Source: Sinomonas susongensis (GTDB lineage: Bacteria; Actinomycetota; Actinomycetes; Actinomycetales; Micrococcaceae). From it: 64,000 bases of DNA. Positions 1,320-21,426 of the stretch are shown here, in pieces. A program made the translations under genes and the position numbers. The stretch is taken from NCBI RefSeq assembly GCF_005877005.1, contig NZ_SSNH01000007.1:62001-126000 (forward strand), given 5' to 3'. Below the pieces are notes generated by a model, which made no database searches, was not told the DNA's origin, and saw only the letters and a list, made by a program, of their open reading frames with translations. How positions within the stretch are numbered: position 1 is the first letter of the stretch; each line of letters begins with the position of its first letter.

Positions 1320-1417
1320 AGGTGTGCCTTTCGTAGGGTGCTTCTCGAGGGTGATGGAACTGCGGCCTGCACGACCGGGGCAGCCCGGCCCTCACAGCGG
1401 CCGGACCACGTGATGCA

Positions 1418-2317
1418 CTAGCCGGTGACGCTGCCCTGGGTGAGGCCAGCCACGATGTAGCGCTGGAGCATGGCGAACACGACGAGGACAGGCACGATCA
1501 CGAGGACCGCGCCGGCCATGAGGATGCCCCACGAGCCTGTGCCGCCCTCGGAGTTCTGCAGGAGCGTGAGCCCGACGGGGAGTGTCATGACCTCCGGGCG
1601 ATCGGTGATGATCAGCGGCCAGATGTAGTCGTTCCACTCCGACACGATCGTCACGAGAGCCACCGTGGCGATCGAGGGGACTGAGACCGGCACCACGATC
1701 TGCCACAGGCGCTTCCAATGGCCCGCCCCGTCGATCTCTGCCGCCTCGAGGATCGAGGCCGGAAGGGTCATGAAGTGCTGGCGCAGCAGAAAGGTGCCGA
1801 ACGCGGTGCCGAGCCCGGGCAGGATGATGCCCCACAGTGTGTTCTTGCCGCCTATGCCAGCTATGAGCACATAGTTCGGCAGGATCGCGACCTGCGGGGG
1901 CACCATGAGCGCCACCAGGATGAGGATGAAGACCACGTTCTTGAACGGAAACCGCACGAACACGAGCGCGTACGCCGTCATGATCGCGAGGGTGACCTTC
2001 ACGGCCGCGCCGACCGCGGTGACGATCGCTGAGTTGAGGAAGAACCGGCCGAACGGAACCGTGGTCATGGCCGTGCTGTAGTTGTCGAGATTGACGGATT
2101 CAGGCAGGACCTTCAGGTCAGTCGTGACGATCTCGCCGGGAGTCTTGAACGAGCTCAGGACCATCCAGAGGAGCGGAAGGACCACTATGAGCGTCGCGAC
2201 AATGAGGGGAAGATAGCCGCCAGCGATCGTACGGGCCAGGTTCTGCGACGAGAACGGGCGCGGTCGTTCAGGCTTGCCGACCGTCTCCGTGACCGCCAGG
2301 GGTGCGGGGGCACTCAT
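1418..2317 (-). CDS. Sugar ABC transporter permease, MalG/UgpE type
   Basis: Inner-membrane permease subunit, 299 residues, with six predicted hydrophobic segments after a cytosolic N-terminus. The coupling loop EAAEIDGAGHWKRLWQIVVP near residue 200 is the EAA motif that contacts the ATPase in CUT1 sugar importers. Its start overlaps the stop of the upstream permease by 4 bp, implying translational coupling. A 98-bp gap separates it from the binding-protein gene. No ATPase gene is in view; CUT1 operons often borrow a shared MsiK-type ATPase encoded elsewhere. Confidence 0.93.
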   Translation of the reverse strand: MSAPAPLAVTETVGKPERPRPFSSQNLARTIAGGYLPLIVATLIVVLPLLWMVLSSFKTPGEIVTTDLKVLPESVNLDNYSTAMTTVPFGRFFLNSAIVTAVGAAVKVTLAIMTAYALVFVRFPFKNVVFILILVALMVPPQVAILPNYVLIAGIGGKNTLWGIILPGLGTAFGTFLLRQHFMTLPASILEAAEIDGAGHWKRLWQIVVPVSVPSIATVALVTIVSEWNDYIWPLIITDRPEVMTLPVGLTLLQNSEGGTGSWGILMAGAVLVIVPVLVVFAMLQRYIVAGLTQGSVTG

Positions 2318-3264
2318 GCGTAGTGCACCTTCCTCTCGACGAACCGGATCTGCACGACCGTGACGACGAGGAGGATCGCGAACAGGACCACCGAGATCGC
2401 GGCGGAGTATCCGGCCCGGTTGTACGACCCGAATGCCTGCATGTACGCCTCATAGATCAGGGTGCTCGTGCCGCTGCCGAGCGGGGTCATGATCCGGATG
2501 AGATCGAACGCCTGGAGGCTCGAGAGGATCGTGGTGATGAGGAGGAAGAACGTAGTGGGGGAGAGCAGCGGGAGGCTGATGCTCAGGAAGCGGCGGCCAG
2601 CCCCGGCCCCGTCGAGCGCGGCAGCCTCCATCACGTCAGCGGGCAGGGACTGCAGCCCCGCGAGGTACACGATCGCGCAGTAGCCCAGGTTCTTCCAGAC
2701 ATAGACGATGATGACCATCGTCAGCGCAAGCGGAGGCTCGTTGAACCACTGCGGGCTCGCGATGCCGATGCTCCGCAGGAACCAGGCGAGGGCCCCATAG
2801 CCGGGGTCGAAGATGAACATCCACACGAGGCCCACACCCACGCCCGAGAGGACGTAGGGCGCGAACACGGCCGAACGCGCGAACGTCGTGCCGCGGACCT
2901 TCGCATTCAACGCGAGCGCAACGAGCAGGCCCAAAACCATGGACACGCCCACCGTGAGCACGGTGAAGACAGCAGTGGTGCCGAGGACTCGGGGGGCGTC
3001 GTCGCTGCCGAAGAACGTCGCGTAGTTCTCAAATCCGATGTACCGCGCCGTCTTCGATCCGAGCGTCCAGTCCAAGAACGAGTACTGGATGTTCGCGAAG
3101 AGCGGTCGGTACGTGAACACCGCGATGAGGATCAGGTTCGGGAGGGCCAGCGCGAGGAAAACAAGGAAGTCGCGGCGGGTGCGGCCGGAGAAGCGGGGGC
3201 GCTTCCGCTCCGGCTGGGAGGTCGACGACGCGCTGCGGCGGCGCGCTTTGGTCGTCTCGCTCAT
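2314..3264 (-). CDS. Sugar ABC transporter permease, MalF/UgpA type
   Basis: Partner permease of the same importer, about 316 residues from the chosen start (MSETTKARRR). A basic cytosolic N-terminus precedes the first membrane span (LVFLALALPNLILIAVFTYRP), and the EAA loop appears as MEAAALDGAGAGRRFLSISLP. The frame stays open upstream to 3369, and an ATG at 3300 sits directly against a GAAGGA, so the N-terminus is uncertain by up to 35 residues. It is the first gene of the operon; the region upstream holds a dyad that may control it. Confidence 0.9.
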   Translation of the reverse strand: MSETTKARRRSASSTSQPERKRPRFSGRTRRDFLVFLALALPNLILIAVFTYRPLFANIQYSFLDWTLGSKTARYIGFENYATFFGSDDAPRVLGTTAVFTVLTVGVSMVLGLLVALALNAKVRGTTFARSAVFAPYVLSGVGVGLVWMFIFDPGYGALAWFLRSIGIASPQWFNEPPLALTMVIIVYVWKNLGYCAIVYLAGLQSLPADVMEAAALDGAGAGRRFLSISLPLLSPTTFFLLITTILSSLQAFDLIRIMTPLGSGTSTLIYEAYMQAFGSYNRAGYSAAISVVLFAILLVVTVVQIRFVERKVHYA

Positions 3265-3393
3265 GGAACAATCGGGCAAGCGGGCTGGGACATCGGCGGG
3301 CATTCCTTCGGCAACTGGGATACGGGGGTGACCGTCTCGAAGTAGTCGACCATGCCGGAATGTTGCCAAAGGGCGACATCTGCTGAACCGCGG

Positions 3394-3425
3394 GTGAATT
3401 CCGATCTACCTCATCGAGAATTCAC
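3394..3425. promoter_or_regulatory. Interrupted palindrome upstream of the sugar ABC operon
   Basis: GTGAATTC at 3394-3401 is repeated in inverse orientation as GAATTCAC at 3418-3425. The inner bases CGAT and ATCG extend the match with a one-base offset. It lies 130 bp upstream of the first permease start and could be an operator for a sugar-responsive repressor; no regulator gene is adjacent. The rest of 3265-3617 shows no gene or further structure that I can support. Confidence 0.4.
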
Positions 3426-3617
3426 AGCTGATAGCTAAGTGGGTGGTGTAGACGGGGGCCTCCCGCCAGCGAGGGTTCGCGTGAGTCCGCCCTTCGCCAG
3501 CCGGACAGTCCCGTGAAACCCACACTTCCCACCAAGGCGCTTGACAGGTATGGGCGTGATTCTGAAGTGGACGGTCCGGGAAGGAACGGCCCGGCGGCCT
3601 ACCGACTGGAGAACAGC

Positions 3618-3922
3618 ATGAAAGTCAACCAGCGCCTCGGCTACGCGGCCGCTTCGGGGCTCGCCGTTGCAGCCCTCATCGGCGCCGGGACCGCTGCGGC
3701 CAGCGCAGCGACCACGCCCAGCCCTTCCACGACTAGCGGTGCGATCAGCAGCTCAGGCACCTCGCCACCGCCACTTCGAACGGCTCGACAGTGCGGTACG
3801 AGGTGAGCGCCGACTATTCGAGCGTCACCGCGGACAGCGGCTTCGGCCGGGGCGGGTTCCACGGCCACGACGGGGGAGCGTCGACCTCGAGCAGCGCCTC
3901 CCCAGGCACCACCCAGGGCTAA
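3618..3922 (+). pseudogene. Small secreted Ser/Thr/Gly-rich protein, apparently frameshifted
   Basis: An ATG at 3618 follows GGAGAACAGC and opens a typical signal peptide (MKVNQRLGYAAASGLAVAAL, then an alanine-rich cleavage region) and a Thr/Ser/Pro linker. That frame stops at 3806 after a sequence with poor codon character (PPPLRTARQCGTR). A different frame continues smoothly from about 3765 as NGSTVRYEVSADYSSVTADS, then a Gly/His-rich and Ser-rich tail ending SASPGTTQG with TAA at 3920. I infer one secreted protein of about 100 residues split by a frameshift near 3745-3770. A sequencing error is equally possible. Function unknown. Confidence 0.5.
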
Positions 3923-16646: not shown

Positions 16647-18089
16647 ATGACCCCTACACGAGCCCGTGATGCCGCCGCTCCTTCGCCTCGGGTGCTGGCA
16701 GGGACCCCGACGCTGGGGGATGGCTCTCCAGTGTCAGGGCAAGGGACAGTGGGAGTCCTCCAGGGATCGGCCCTCTACATCTCGGCAGTGCTGGGCACCG
16801 GGATCCTTGTCCTCCCCGGCCTAGCCGCCGAGGTCGCAGGCCCGGCATCCCTCCTCGCGGTAGCCGCCGTACTAGTTCTCTCGGTCCCGCTCGCAGGAAC
16901 GTTCGCAGCGTTGGCGGCCCGGTTTCCTGATGCCGGTGGCGTTGCGACGTTCGTGCGGATTGCGCTCGGCAGGACGGCAGCACGCATGGCCGGCTACTGG
17001 TTCTTCTTCGGGGTGGGCGTAGGCGCCCCCGTCGTTGCGGTTCTGGGAGCCTCGTACCTGGTGGCGACCTTCGGCGGTCCCCGCTGGGCCGTCGTCGTCC
17101 TCGCCGTACTGCTCCTCGTCCCGCCGTTCCTGTCGAACGCCTTCGGAGTTCGCGTTTCGGGGCGCGTCCAGCTGAGCCTCACGGTCGCTCTCGTGGCGAC
17201 CGTCATCGGTGTGGTGGCACTCTGCGCCCCGGCCATGGATCCAGCCCGCTTCGTGCCGTTCCTGCCTCACGGGTGGGCTGGGGTAGCGACCGCCGTGAGC
17301 CTGTTCGTGTGGGCGTTCTCCGGCTGGGAAGCAGTGACCCACCTTGCCGCGGACTTCAGGGCTCCTCGACGGACCATCCCGTTGGCCACAGGAATCGCCG
17401 TTGCGGTCGTCGGCAGCTCCTACTTCGCCCTGCAGCTGATGACCGTCACCGTCCTGGGAGGGAAGGAAGCCGACGGCGACGCCCTGCCATTGTTGGCCTT
17501 GGTCACCTCCGCCGCTGGTGGAGCAGGCCGGGCTGTCGTCGCGACCATCGCTGCCGTCGTCGTACTTGGAGTGCTCAACGCCTACGTCGGCGCGTTCGCC
17601 AAGCTCGGCGCCTCCCTAGGCCGCGACGGCGACTTGCCGCGTTGGCTTGCGGCGGGCTCGGGACCCGGGCAAGTGCCTCGGCGGAGCCTCGTGGCTGTGG
17701 CAGCCCTCACCGGCGTCTATCTCTCAGTGCTGATGCTCACCGGACTGGACCTGTTCCCCTTCATCCTGATCCACACGAGTTCGATGGTCTCGGTCTATGC
17801 CCTGGGAATGCTGGCGGCAGTGCGCCTGTTCGACCGGTTCTCACTCGGCTGGTGGCTCGGACTCGTGTCCCTTGTGCTCACCGCCGGCCTGCTCCTGCTG
17901 GCCGGGACGCAGCTCCTCGTGCCGGGGTGCATCGCAGTTGGCGCGTTGCTCGTCGGTGCCTCCAAGAATCTGCGCGGCTTACGCATGCGCCAGTGGGCCT
18001 CTAGGCTTCCGAACCGGTTTCGCGGTGGCTCGATTCGCGGCGTGACCAGTCCTGTGGGATGGCGGCCTCGAGGGCGTCGTCGACGGTGA
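16647..18089 (+). CDS. APC family amino acid/polyamine permease
   Basis: A 480-residue carrier with about 12 membrane spans. VGVLQGSALYISAVLGTGILVLPGL is the APC span 1 with its unwound GTG motif, and SLFVWAFSGWEAVTHLAADF is the span 6 substrate region. It lies 74 bp downstream of the GlxA-type regulator, suggesting induction by the same ligand. The hydrophobic part ends near residue 450; the last 28 residues are a basic tail (RGGSIRGVTSP onward) encoded antisense to the 3' end of the next gene. The stop may once have been near 18000. Confidence 0.85.
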   Translation: MTPTRARDAAAPSPRVLAGTPTLGDGSPVSGQGTVGVLQGSALYISAVLGTGILVLPGLAAEVAGPASLLAVAAVLVLSVPLAGTFAALAARFPDAGGVATFVRIALGRTAARMAGYWFFFGVGVGAPVVAVLGASYLVATFGGPRWAVVVLAVLLLVPPFLSNAFGVRVSGRVQLSLTVALVATVIGVVALCAPAMDPARFVPFLPHGWAGVATAVSLFVWAFSGWEAVTHLAADFRAPRRTIPLATGIAVAVVGSSYFALQLMTVTVLGGKEADGDALPLLALVTSAAGGAGRAVVATIAAVVVLGVLNAYVGAFAKLGASLGRDGDLPRWLAAGSGPGQVPRRSLVAVAALTGVYLSVLMLTGLDLFPFILIHTSSMVSVYALGMLAAVRLFDRFSLGWWLGLVSLVLTAGLLLLAGTQLLVPGCIAVGALLVGASKNLRGLRMRQWASRLPNRFRGGSIRGVTSPVGWRPRGRRRR

Positions 18090-19266
18090 TGAGGCCGAGG
18101 ATGTGCCGGTCCTCGGAGATGACGGGCATCGTGAGGAGGTTGAAGTCGGCCATACGGGTCGTGACGTCGATGACGTCGTCGCCGGGGGAGGCGACCACGA
18201 CGTCGATGTCGGCGACCTCGGCGAGGGTGAGGCCTGGTTCGGCCTGGACTGCCTGGACCAGGGTGAGTGCGCCCTCGAGCGCGCCGTCGGGGGCGAGGGT
18301 GTAGATCACGGTGAGGGCCTGGGGCTGGATCAGTCGGGCGCCGCGGACAGCGGTGAAGGCATCGGCAACGGTGGCGGTGGACGGCAGGGCGAGGAAGTCG
18401 GTTCCCATCAGGCCCCCGGCGGTGAGGTCGTGGTAGCCCAGCAGACGGTGGACGCGGGACCGTTGGGGTTCCGGGAGCGCTTCGAGGACGGGGATGCGCC
18501 GCTCTTGGGGCAGGTCCATGAGGGCGTCGGCGGCGTCGTCGGCCTGCATGCGGGCCAGGACTTCGGCGACCTCGGCATCGGAACGGTCCTTGAACAGCTC
18601 GGACTGGGAGTCCTCGTCGAGCTCTTCGAAGACGTCGGCCTCGAGTTCGGGGTCCTCGTGGACCTGGGCCAGGAGTTCGTCCTGCTCGTGTTCGTTGGCC
18701 TCCTCGATGATGTCGGCGATCTGGGCGGGCTTGAGCTCGGGGATGCGGCCGGTGGCCTGACGGACGTGAGCGGATTCGGCGTGGCCGATCAGGGGCTCGA
18801 AGTCCTTCCAGTCCCTCGGCGGGTGGGCCGCGTGGCGCGGGCCCACGGCGAGCCAGCGCCGGCGGTGGACGTCGAGGCCGGTGGCGGCCCAGCCGTCCAG
18901 GACAGGGGTGAGCTCGATGTCGTAGGCCTTGACGAACGCGGCGCGGGAGACGTCGATGAGCCGGTGTCCCAGGACGTCCTCGGAGAGGAGGACCTCGCCC
19001 TCCCGGCGGCGGAACTCGCGCACGTCGACGGTACTCACGGCGAGCCGGACCTGTTCCGGGCCCAGGGCTGCCAAATCGGCGGCGGAGACGAACACGCGCG
19101 TGCTGCCGACGGCGACGACGAGCCCCGTGACGAGGGGGTAGTCGTCGTCGCGCAGGCGGACGATGAGGTCCGCCAGAGTGCCCATGCGGTGACCGTCCGA
19201 GTCGGTCACGGGCTGGCGCAGCAGGGCGGAGAGGGAGAGGGAGCCGGTGGGCGCTGCGGTGGTCAT
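18001..19266 (-). CDS. Cytosolic PRC-barrel/MgtE-N/CBS protein, probable magnesium sensor
   Basis: A 421-residue soluble protein. Residues 10-70 resemble a PRC-barrel (GHRMGTLADLIVRLRDDDYP), 190-290 match the MgtE N-domain superhelix (PAQIADIIEEANEHEQDEL, DAEVAEVLARMQADDAADAL), and 300-415 hold two CBS repeats (TVADAFTAVRGARLIQPQAL and DVTTRMADFNLLTMPVISED). In MgtE these cytosolic parts bind magnesium and close the pore. Here there is no membrane domain; the gene lies 75 bp downstream of an Nramp-related transporter, so it probably gates or regulates that protein in trans. GAAAGG precedes ATG 19266. Confidence 0.88.
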   Translation of the reverse strand: MTTAAPTGSLSLSALLRQPVTDSDGHRMGTLADLIVRLRDDDYPLVTGLVVAVGSTRVFVSAADLAALGPEQVRLAVSTVDVREFRRREGEVLLSEDVLGHRLIDVSRAAFVKAYDIELTPVLDGWAATGLDVHRRRWLAVGPRHAAHPPRDWKDFEPLIGHAESAHVRQATGRIPELKPAQIADIIEEANEHEQDELLAQVHEDPELEADVFEELDEDSQSELFKDRSDAEVAEVLARMQADDAADALMDLPQERRIPVLEALPEPQRSRVHRLLGYHDLTAGGLMGTDFLALPSTATVADAFTAVRGARLIQPQALTVIYTLAPDGALEGALTLVQAVQAEPGLTLAEVADIDVVVASPGDDVIDVTTRMADFNLLTMPVISEDRHILGLITVDDALEAAIPQDWSRRESSHRETGSEA

Positions 19267-19341: not shown

Positions 19342-21033
19342 TCAGGCGTTGCCGAGGGCGAGTTGGACGACGCGGACGATCACCAGGATCATCGCGACCA
19401 GCAGGTATAGGCGCAGCACGCTCAGCCCGATCCGCCGCGGCGTCGAGAGCTGGGGCCGCTGCAGCAGCGCCAGCGGAGGCATCCGCCAGGTGAGGCGCTG
19501 GGAGCGGTCTATCGGCTCGGCCGGCGCGGCCTTCCCTGCGGCCCGGGCACGGGCGCGCATGACGACGAGCGCCACAGCGGCCAGGACCGCCAGCAGCGCC
19601 CCGCCTCCGAGGATCTCCAGGATCGTCGTCCCGTCGATGTTTGGGAACAGGACTGCGGCGGTGAGGACCACCGAGAGGATCACCAGCACCGCGATCACGG
19701 CGGAGGTGAAGATGTTCATGCCGCGGCCGTTGGCCCAGGGCCCCATGACCTCCCTGTCGTTGCACAGCAGCAACAGGAACACGGTGGCCGAGGGCAGGAG
19801 AACCCCGGCCAGGACCTGGACGCCGACGGTGAGCAGGCCCAGAGGGCTCCCGGGGATGACGACGATCACGGCGGAGATCAGGATGAGGCCGGCGAAGGCG
19901 GCATAGAAGCCCTTGGCCTCGCTGGGCCTCCGGTGCAGGGAGTGCTTCAGGCCCAGCACGTCGCCGAGGGCGTAGGAGGTGGAAAGGCCTACCGCGGCGG
20001 CGCCGATGATCGACGCGTCGATCAGGGCCAGGGCGAACAGGATCCCGGCGAGGTGGCCGACGTACTTCCCGAGGCCTTCGGCCACGCCCCCGGCGTCGGT
20101 GAACTGGCCGAACTCGGGGTGCCCGGCGAAGGTGGACGCGGTGAAGGAGATGATGGCGGCGGCACCGAGGACGACGATGACGATCCCGAGCCACAGGTCG
20201 ACCCGCTCGTACTTCATGTAGCGGGGGGTGATGCGCTTGTCGATCACGTAGGACTGCTGGAAGAACAGCTGCCAGGGGGCGATGGTCGTTCCGACGATCG
20301 CAATGATCAGCAGCGTCACGTCGGAGATGCTCGAACCCGCGGGCACCCCGGGCAGCACGAAGCCCTGGGCGATCCGGGCATAGTCCGGCGCGCTCATGAA
20401 GAACACGGGCACGAGCAGCACCGAGCCGATGACGAGGGCCAAGCAGACCCTTTCGAAGCGCTGGAAGGATCCGGTGCTCGCCGCCCCCACGATCACGAGC
20501 GCCGCGACGATCACCCCCGGGATCTTGGGCACACCGAGATAGTTCAGGCCGATGCTGATGCCGATGAACTCGGTGACGATCGTCAGGGCGTTGAGGATGA
20601 AGAGGTCGATCGCGCTGAACGCGCCCCAGAAGCGGCCGAACCGCTCGAGGATGAGCCGGGCATGGCCGACTCCCGTGACGACCCCGAGCCGGAGCACCAT
20701 CTCCTGGTTCACGTACAGCACGGGGATCAGGAGCAGCAGCGTCCACAGAAGGCTTGTGCCGTAGTTCTGCCCGGCCTGGGTGTACGTGCCGAAAGCGCCG
20801 GCGTCGTTGTCCCCGACCATCACAATCAGACCCGGTCCGATGATCGCCAGGAGCGTCTTCAGGCGCGCCTTCCAGCTCGACTGCACAGAGGACTCGTCAA
20901 GGCGGATCGTGCCGAAGGCACCCTTGATGTCCCCGACATGTGCCGAGTCGAGGACGGCGGAACCAGTGGCGGGCGCCTCGGGGTGACCGGGCGGGGCAGC
21001 GGTGCGGGTGGGGGTGGGGTTCGTCTTGGCCAT
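19342..21033 (-). CDS. Nramp-related divalent metal (probably magnesium) transporter
   Basis: A 563-residue protein with about 11 membrane spans on the Nramp/SLC11 plan: GPGLIVMVGDNDAGAFGTYT in span 1 and IIAIVGTTIAPWQLFFQQS in span 6. Classical Nramp proteins have DPGN and MPHN there. Here the span 1 Asp (D77) remains but P, N become A, A (DAGA), and the span 6 Met, His, Asn become A252, W254, Q255. Loss of the Met ligand is the hallmark described for Nramp-related magnesium transporters. The M-box riboswitch upstream and the MgtE-like sensor downstream agree. A long cytosolic N-terminus (about 60 residues) is extra. Confidence 0.88.
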   Translation of the reverse strand: MAKTNPTPTRTAAPPGHPEAPATGSAVLDSAHVGDIKGAFGTIRLDESSVQSSWKARLKTLLAIIGPGLIVMVGDNDAGAFGTYTQAGQNYGTSLLWTLLLLIPVLYVNQEMVLRLGVVTGVGHARLILERFGRFWGAFSAIDLFILNALTIVTEFIGISIGLNYLGVPKIPGVIVAALVIVGAASTGSFQRFERVCLALVIGSVLLVPVFFMSAPDYARIAQGFVLPGVPAGSSISDVTLLIIAIVGTTIAPWQLFFQQSYVIDKRITPRYMKYERVDLWLGIVIVVLGAAAIISFTASTFAGHPEFGQFTDAGGVAEGLGKYVGHLAGILFALALIDASIIGAAAVGLSTSYALGDVLGLKHSLHRRPSEAKGFYAAFAGLILISAVIVVIPGSPLGLLTVGVQVLAGVLLPSATVFLLLLCNDREVMGPWANGRGMNIFTSAVIAVLVILSVVLTAAVLFPNIDGTTILEILGGGALLAVLAAVALVVMRARARAAGKAAPAEPIDRSQRLTWRMPPLALLQRPQLSTPRRIGLSVLRLYLLVAMILVIVRVVQLALGNA

Positions 21034-21152
21034 GGGGGACCTGCTTCCTCCCGGCGGTGGCCGGGGACCGGTGAAGCGCACACCGAGGGGACCCTGCGCG
21101 GGCAGGGGTCAACTCGGAAGGGGCATAGAGAAAGGAATGCTGGAGAAGGGGC

Positions 21153-21236: not shown

Positions 21237-21257
21237 CCCCGGGCGCCCGGCCCGGGG
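21237..21257 (-). terminator. GC hairpin in the M-box expression platform
   Basis: CCCCGGGC and GCCCGGGG form a perfect 8-bp stem around a 5-base loop, directly after the aptamer on the minus strand. Two bases overlap the 3' strand of helix P1, so full P1 pairing and full hairpin pairing compete. No U-run follows, so it may act with Rho or on translation rather than as an intrinsic terminator. Confidence 0.5.
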
Positions 21258-21426
21258 TGCCCTTCCTCGTAAGACCTTTGGCACTTCGCGTCGTGACCCC
21301 TTCGAGGGGGAGCCAATCGGGGTTGCCCCTTGCATCCGGGGCAGCCTGTCCTGACCTGTGGCGTCTCTCGACGTTTGGGGTCGCTGGCCTGTTTACGCGA
21401 AGGAGCCTCAGCTAACGAACGGCACC
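21256..21426 (-). promoter_or_regulatory. M-box (ykoK leader) magnesium riboswitch
   Basis: Read on the minus strand, the leader keeps the M-box core in order: GTTAGCTGAGGCTCC (21416-21402), GTCGAGAGACGCC (about 21373-21361), GGATGCAAG (about 21335), and GTGCCAAAGGTCTTACGAGG near the 3' end. Long-range pairing supports it: CTTCGCGT (21402-21395) with ACGCGAAG (21291-21284) forms P2, and GGTGCC (21426-21421) with GGCACC (21261-21256) forms P1. In known cases magnesium binding turns the downstream gene off. It precedes the Nramp-related transporter and the MgtE-like sensor gene. Confidence 0.88.

Follow-up and report, generated by a model that had tools for sequence, protein, structure and literature searches.

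An MgtE-type sensor gene beside an NRMT-type transporter gene

We analysed a 64,000-nucleotide stretch of the Sinomonas susongensis genome (contig NZ_SSNH01000007.1, positions 62,001 to 126,000; hereafter the window), in which a free-standing protein related to the cytoplasmic half of the magnesium channel MgtE, here called the sensor, is encoded beside an Nramp-fold transporter. In the order of transcription on the minus strand, an M-box comes first, followed by the gene for an NRMT-type Nramp transporter and then by the sensor gene (Table 1). The M-box match covers positions 1–169 of the Rfam covariance model and scored 115.3 bits, where the gathering score is 44, which bears out the RNA-level element that a preliminary description of this DNA had placed in the same operon. 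The sensor ATG lies 75 bases beyond the transporter stop codon, on the same strand, with GAAAGG immediately 5′ of it. For the transporter, the ATG at 21033 (residue 17) is a likelier start than the GTG of Table 1. The sensor shares its reading frame with the transporter gene, with a single TGA between them, and the arrangement is similar in several relatives. A readthrough product joining the two proteins was considered and rejected, as the shared frame was taken to be at about chance level and the sensor has an ATG and a GAAAGG of its own. An open reading frame for an amino-acid permease (16647–18089) converges on the sensor gene, and the two overlap at their 3′ ends (18001–18089).

Table 1. 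Coordinates and basis of assignment of the features discussed; positions are those of the window unless a locus is named.
Feature	Position	Strand	Basis
M-box (ykoK leader) Mg2+ riboswitch aptamer, 5′ of NRMT gene	21256..21426	−	Rfam RF00380
NRMT-type Nramp transporter, 579 residues from GTG at 21081	19342..21081	−	Pfam Nramp, E 1.5e-85; 7qia, E 5.8e-55
α1 binding-site motif D93-A94-G95-A96 (DxxA; NRMT consensus DxxG)	20794..20805	−	Comparison with consensus of PMC8806188
α6 binding-site motif T265-T266-I267-A268 (TxxA, as NRMT)	20278..20289	−	Comparison with consensus of PMC8806188
Free-standing MgtE-type sensor, 421 residues, own ATG	18001..19266	−	Pfam MgtE_N and CBS
N-terminal PRC-barrel-like region, residues about 12–135	18862..19233	−	Homology and AlphaFold2 beta structure
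MgtE_N domain, residues 178–280; D211, D243, D247	18427..18735	−	Pfam, E 5e-20; alignment
CBS pair, residues about 283–402; D397 at MgtE D247 position	18061..18420	−	Pfam, alignment, AlphaFold2 model
C-terminal tail, P404..W407 where MgtE has plug helix	18004..18060	−	Tail comparison
Sensor–ATPase fusion, 1317 residues	L083/L336 6089–10042; L335 778–4731	−	PRC/MgtE_N/CBS and Mg2+ P-type ATPase

The closest solved structure to the transporter is EleNRMT (PDB 7qia). NRMTs carry the binding-site motif DxxG-TxxA/T, in which the Asn and Met found in classical Nramps are replaced (PMC8806188). The window protein fits this motif with TxxA on α6; its α1 reads DxxA, the sole DxxA in our tabulated sets (the pattern used for our set of named loci demands the Gly). 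The Ala standing for the Gly of DxxG is encoded at 20794–20796. In a tree, the transporter has DxxG-TxxA proteins around it and a clade with M-boxes as its neighbour (SH-aLRT 99), which places it probably within the NRMT clade. It is a probable magnesium importer. The host genome also encodes a CorA, a classical MntH (DxxN-AxxM, locus L003) and a third Nramp (DxxG-TxxS, locus L005). Adjoining the MntH gene is what we take, from its sequence, to be a DtxR/MntR-like regulator gene (L003 681–1559, minus strand).

Acidic ligand positions of MgtE in a protein without its pore

The nearest solved structures to the window sensor, by sequence and by fold, are the cytosolic domains of MgtE (2oux, 2yvy), followed by other CBS proteins. 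Pfam detected MgtE_N and scored only the second CBS domain (residues 351–401, E 4e-7). The preliminary description had read a free-standing MgtE_N/CBS protein beside an Nramp-fold transporter, and the Pfam matches, the solved MgtE relatives and the 7qia match of the transporter agree with it. It had also added a PRC-barrel. PF05239 gave no match in the window sensor even at E 0.01, and matched 33 of the 49 members of the alignment of its relatives (A3); the AlphaFold2 model (mean predicted local distance difference test (pLDDT) score 86.6, predicted template-modelling (pTM) score 0.61) is beta-rich at residues 19–132. The barrel is therefore putative, assigned by homology only.

In Thermus thermophilus MgtE, E59 belongs to site Mg7, D91 and D247 to Mg4, D95 to Mg6, and D226 and D250 to Mg5, while E258 and D259 of the plug helix belong to Mg2 and Mg3 (PMC5882242). 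In our alignment, D211, D243, D247 and D397 of the window sensor fall at the E59, D91, D95 and D247 positions, and the D226 position is N. We counted these ligands in the 91 class A sensors outside the Bacillota, 81 of them soluble and 10 with a single helix. The E59 position is D or E in 90, the D91 position is D in 88, the D95 position is D or E in all 91 and the D247 position is D in all 91. The MgtE membrane domain with its pore aspartate (D432 in T. thermophilus) is absent from the window sensor, which ends about 20 residues after the CBS pair; a hydropathy count found a membrane helix after the CBS pair in 0 of the 81 soluble class A tails, the window included. These comparisons suggest that the clamp formed by the N domain and the CBS pair has been retained and that the element with which MgtE plugs its pore has gone.

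Sensor and transporter genes recur together

A survey of 296 genomes of the window's phylum gave 92 NRMT-like matches in 86 genomes. At least 63 of the 92 have a sensor within 3 kb, and three more (L138–L140) have a weaker sensor just downstream, giving at least 66 against a rough chance expectation of about 0.4. The survey used 150 sensor rows and scored up to six sensor and four NRMT candidates per genome, so the unpaired counts may be too high. In the Bacillota, where 39 of 348 genomes had matches, a sensor stands beside all 34 strong matches and beside none of the 7 Nramps fetched from among 19 weaker ones. The recurrence that the preliminary description had proposed to look for was found in two phyla.

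Among the matches listed, 61 of the 66 pairs have the sensor upstream on the transporter's strand; in 4, one of them the window, it lies downstream, and in 1 it is on the opposite strand. Our 80 named loci include 52 with a sensor (50 upstream, 1 downstream, 1 opposite); 7 of the other 28 are cut by a contig end. Because gene order varies, the linkage appears to have outlived rearrangement. Among the 26 unpaired matches of the same list, 15 have a sensor frame of 600–700 residues elsewhere in the genome, and the 7 of these that were fetched are all pore-dead MgtE forms, described below. Seven unpaired matches were fetched in the first locus set, plus G220:C38.

In the first survey, 63 of the 65 paired loci have the binding-site motif DxxG-Txx[A/T/S] and the other 2 have GxxG-TxxA; six of the seven unpaired loci fetched there also have an NRMT site, and one reads DxxS-AxxT. 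In the Bacillota, the 33 tabulated paired loci have DxxG-Txx[A/T]; one of the seven unpaired loci has DxxG-TxxA (L329) and six do not. The counts indicate that sensors adjoin NRMT-type carriers, yet some NRMTs have no sensor.

We also compared the histories of the two proteins. Placement of the window NRMT in the paired clade of actinomycetes was rejected (p 8e-5), whereas the window sensor joins that clade. Capture of the sensor from another lineage was considered as a possible cause; the signal vanishes with matched rows, for which congruence of NRMT and sensor was not rejected (p 0.25), or with the M-box clade included (p 0.46 and 0.51).

M-boxes occur on 16 of the 66 pairs of the first phylum survey (among the matches listed) and, with a model built in this analysis, on 25 of 34 Bacillota pairs. 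At L065, an M-box (2775–2943) lies between sensor and NRMT and would cover the transporter only. Among the named window-type loci, leaving aside seven cut at a contig end, 20 of 21 sensor-less NRMTs with flanking sequence have an M-box (L183 has none), compared with 3 of 52 paired loci. A functional replacement of sensor by M-box was considered and rejected: the tree needs two changes of sensor label, and a test of independent pairs comprised two pairs and had no power. Since there are only two changes on the tree, the reversed pattern of the named loci carries little weight. A mycobacterial M-box class has been described 5′ of a type of manganese transporter (PMC12810186); the sensor-less mycobacterial NRMTs may be those manganese-type genes, with an NRMT-like site.

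Some loci depart from the two-gene layout. Frames of 202–218 residues resembling the PRC part of the sensor alone adjoin NRMT genes at L081 (4451–5083), L091 (4436–5044) and L132 (285–941). At L311, the sensor is split into two overlapping frames (PRC, 1615–2292; MgtE_N/CBS, 2153–2992), reminiscent of the split homologue reported for C. acetobutylicum. At L338, a Bacillota NRMT (G346) is split into two overlapping frames (2574–3584 and 3524–3865, minus strand) adjoining an intact sensor and an M-box. A search of plasmids with an NRMT returned Nramps of under 60% identity.

Pore-dead, one-helix and ATPase-fused relatives

Thirty-three relatives of the sensor with frames of 604–699 residues, 26 adjoining an NRMT and 7 unlinked, have a C-terminal MgtE-like membrane domain with 4–6 predicted helices. 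This domain aligned with the MgtE pore domain at hhalign probabilities of 98.7 and 99.2%, against 0.1% for an NRMT control. The pore aspartate is present in 0 of the 33 and in all 13 real MgtE rows, and the 33 have also lost the helix-2 GG (14 MgtE reference loci were fetched, and a text filter left 13 for the pore comparison and 12 for the ligand and tail comparisons). In MgtE, mutation of the pore-aspartate site abolishes conduction (PMC5882242), and we refer to these relatives as pore-dead. At L133, one unlinked pore-dead MgtE (1377–3272) has its own M-box (1251–1418), and the NRMT of that genome lies on another contig (L132).

Ten further relatives have a single C-terminal helix by hydropathy count, and the window sensor and its kin have none. 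The one-helix forms nest inside the pore-dead group (SH-aLRT 99), which supports a step from pore-dead to one-helix forms but, in an unrooted tree, no particular route to the soluble forms. At L112, the transporter adjoining a one-helix sensor is near-identical to EleNRMT (7qia).

In two genomes (G187 and G296, among 18 genomes searched from that taxonomic order), the sensor is joined in one 1317-residue frame to a full Mg2+-translocating P-type ATPase of the MgtA type; the ATPase part in G187 scored 1077 bits with TIGR01524 against a cut-off of 611. This fusion is our strongest hint that the sensor unit may regulate Mg2+ transport itself. A scan of viral_contigs for it found no relative.

The host genome also encodes a second sensor paralogue, adjoining a DUF1003 membrane protein. 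DUF1003 was present in all 10 loci examined for this paralogue type, our class C (L002 843–2739, minus strand; L062–L064; L159–L164), of which 9 entered the ligand, tree and tail counts (L063 was left out for a spurious long frame). Class C sensors and DUF1003 proteins are possibly another Mg2+ transport pair; we found no literature joining DUF1003 with magnesium.

The soluble sensors lack the plug helix of MgtE, and at its place 70 of the 81 soluble class A sensors have a P..[WY][RK] tail; the P..WSRR of the window is not among the 70. The tail occurs in 0 of 12 real MgtE proteins, 0 of 33 pore-dead forms, 0 of 10 one-helix forms and 9 of 9 class C paralogues. In the Bacillota the sensor has a short, basic tail (median net charge +3), from which P..[WY][RK] is by eye mostly absent. 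An argument for the C-terminal tail of the transporter as docking site, drawn from two sensor-less close relatives of the transporter that had matched only to residue 511–513, was discarded, as their full frames have that tail.

A proposed magnesium-reading subunit and its alternatives

We consider it probable, by a modest margin, that the sensor is a Mg2+-reading regulatory subunit that derives from the cytoplasmic half of MgtE and restrains the NRMT in trans. The gene content and linkage, the conserved ligands, the loss of pore aspartate and plug in the relatives and the MgtA fusion in two genomes all point this way. At high cytoplasmic Mg2+, the ion would bind between the N domain and the CBS pair, and the sensor would close into a compact form. 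The closed sensor would then dock on the cytoplasmic face of the adjacent NRMT, perhaps through its C-terminal tail, and keep the carrier in a non-transporting state; at low Mg2+ the sensor would open and release it. The M-box would limit the amount of transporter made, and the sensor the fraction working. Both Mg2+ binding by the window sensor and its contact with the NRMT through such an element are what we infer from these comparisons. Negative feedback is the likeliest sign because these domains act in that way in MgtE. No PF01769 match, and hence no MgtE pore domain, was found in the host genome (99.9% complete), which leaves the sensor without an ancestral channel to act on in this genome, and the adjacent NRMT is the likeliest target. 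The interpretation in the preliminary description, a sensor that gates the carrier in trans, is plausible and in part supported.

Several observations weigh against this reading. The D226 position is N in 73 of the 91 class A sensors, and the plug-helix ligands are lost. All 9 class C paralogues conserve the N-domain ligands equally well, which makes these residues a mark of the family rather than of an NRMT partner. Likewise, the NRMT motif fails to separate paired from unpaired loci, given the six of seven unpaired loci that have it and the two GxxG proteins among the 65 paired. An M-box occurs without an adjacent sensor at 22 NRMT loci (20 named ones, L072 and L073) and at L329 in the Bacillota. 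The preliminary description had suggested a search for natural fusions; one with MgtA came to light and one with the NRMT did not: none of 154 NRMT frames from two sets of loci contained a sensor, and no Bacillota match had a frame above 577 residues. A 1158-residue frame at G220:C38 was rejected as a candidate fusion, as Pfam found Nramp only in it and no sensor was found. A joint AlphaFold2 chain of both window proteins (alignment A6; pLDDT 70, pTM 0.50) was uninformative. In the work of Shin et al. (2014), NrmT rescued Mg2+ uptake without the sensor gene, co-expression of the Acidobacterium capsulatum sensor did not improve growth rescue and the A. capsulatum partner rescued Mn2+ uptake (PMC4072509). 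The co-expression result is a weak objection, as an inhibitor would not improve rescue.

It is unlikely, though the best placed of the alternatives, that the sensor aids folding, assembly or membrane retention of the NRMT and binds Mg2+ for structural purposes only, with no gating. The strong linkage suits such a scaffold, as do the varied membrane anchors, with 4–6, 1 or 0 predicted helices; the conserved sensing ligands speak for gating, and the accessible text of the EleNRMT report, in which that protein was placed in proteoliposomes, mentions neither CBS nor an operon partner (PMC8806188). Slightly less likely are two further readings, which we rank together. In one, named by Shin et al. 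(PMC4072509), the sensor would receive metal from the NRMT and serve as a buffer or chaperone for Mg2+ (or Mn2+). The retained ligand set is compatible with it, but free cytoplasmic Mg2+ is millimolar and would leave a chaperone little to do, and pore-dead channel forms and the MgtA fusion suit gating better. In the other, the ligand of the CBS pair would be ATP or a different nucleotide, and the sensor would couple the NRMT to the energy state instead of to Mg2+. MgtE CBS domains do bind ATP (PMC5529423; 5x9g); against this stand the strong conservation of the N-domain and D247 Mg2+ ligand positions and the M-boxes on many of the operons. Least likely is a sensor acting on another membrane protein, such as the CorA of the host or the DUF1003 protein beside its second paralogue, with the NRMT as a member of a shared regulon only, since DUF1003 was found neither in 36 NRMT loci tested (28 with sensor) nor in the window, the host genome yielded no MgtE pore domain and all 34 strong Bacillota NRMTs are linked to a sensor.

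If the sensor does restrain the NRMT, an Nramp-fold carrier would be gated by an allosteric subunit taken over from an ion channel. The MgtA fusion would exert the same control covalently, and the pore-dead MgtE forms would be predicted to be non-conducting regulators. A wider proposal, which we offer tentatively and with clearly less confidence, is that PRC/MgtE_N/CBS is a movable Mg2+ governor on unrelated Mg2+ transport proteins: on NRMT as a separate pore-dead, one-helix or soluble subunit, on MgtA within one chain and possibly on DUF1003 proteins, which would then take part in Mg2+ transport too. In one lineage, a channel might have been stripped stepwise to a regulator beside the carrier that it came to control. 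Seen with its relatives, the window pair looks less like an isolated oddity and more like one setting of a portable sensor. The relatives also make testable the role of a neighbour gene that Shin et al. left open, as structures are available for EleNRMT and a one-helix sensor accompanies a transporter near-identical to it.

Comparison with known systems

The pairing of sensor and NRMT, and the idea of feedback in trans, are already known and were proposed in 2014. Shin et al. reported that most NrmT genes adjoin a gene homologous to the N-terminal cytoplasmic domain of MgtE and that many are under M-boxes, and they raised, as speculation, a part for the neighbour in feedback regulation or as a chaperone (PMC4072509). 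The window sensor shows both traits, homology to the MgtE N domain and adjacency to an NrmT gene. The window has the same two adjacent genes, which are often under an M-box, and invites the same feedback proposal; it differs in that the NRMT gene comes first. The PRC part, the pore-dead MgtE, the one-helix forms and the MgtA fusion go unmentioned in the accessible text of that paper, in which the term CBS has 0 occurrences. Among the papers listed in searches of the open-access literature, no later test of the proposal was found.

Like EleNRMT, its closest solved relative, the window transporter has TxxA on α6 and groups in the NRMT clade. It differs from EleNRMT in reading DxxA, not DxxG, on α1 and in having about 100 more C-terminal residues, and the accessible part of the EleNRMT report names no sensor partner (PMC8806188). 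The window sensor shares with the MgtE cytoplasmic domain (2yvy, 2oux) the MgtE_N domain, the CBS pair and acidic residues at the Mg4, Mg6 and Mg7 positions. Unlike MgtE, it has neither pore nor plug helix, carries a putative added PRC part and has N at the Mg5 ligand position D226. Mg2+-translocating P-type ATPases of TIGR01524 bear the sensor at the N-terminus in two relatives; no such fusion lies in the window, where sensor and transporter are separate proteins.

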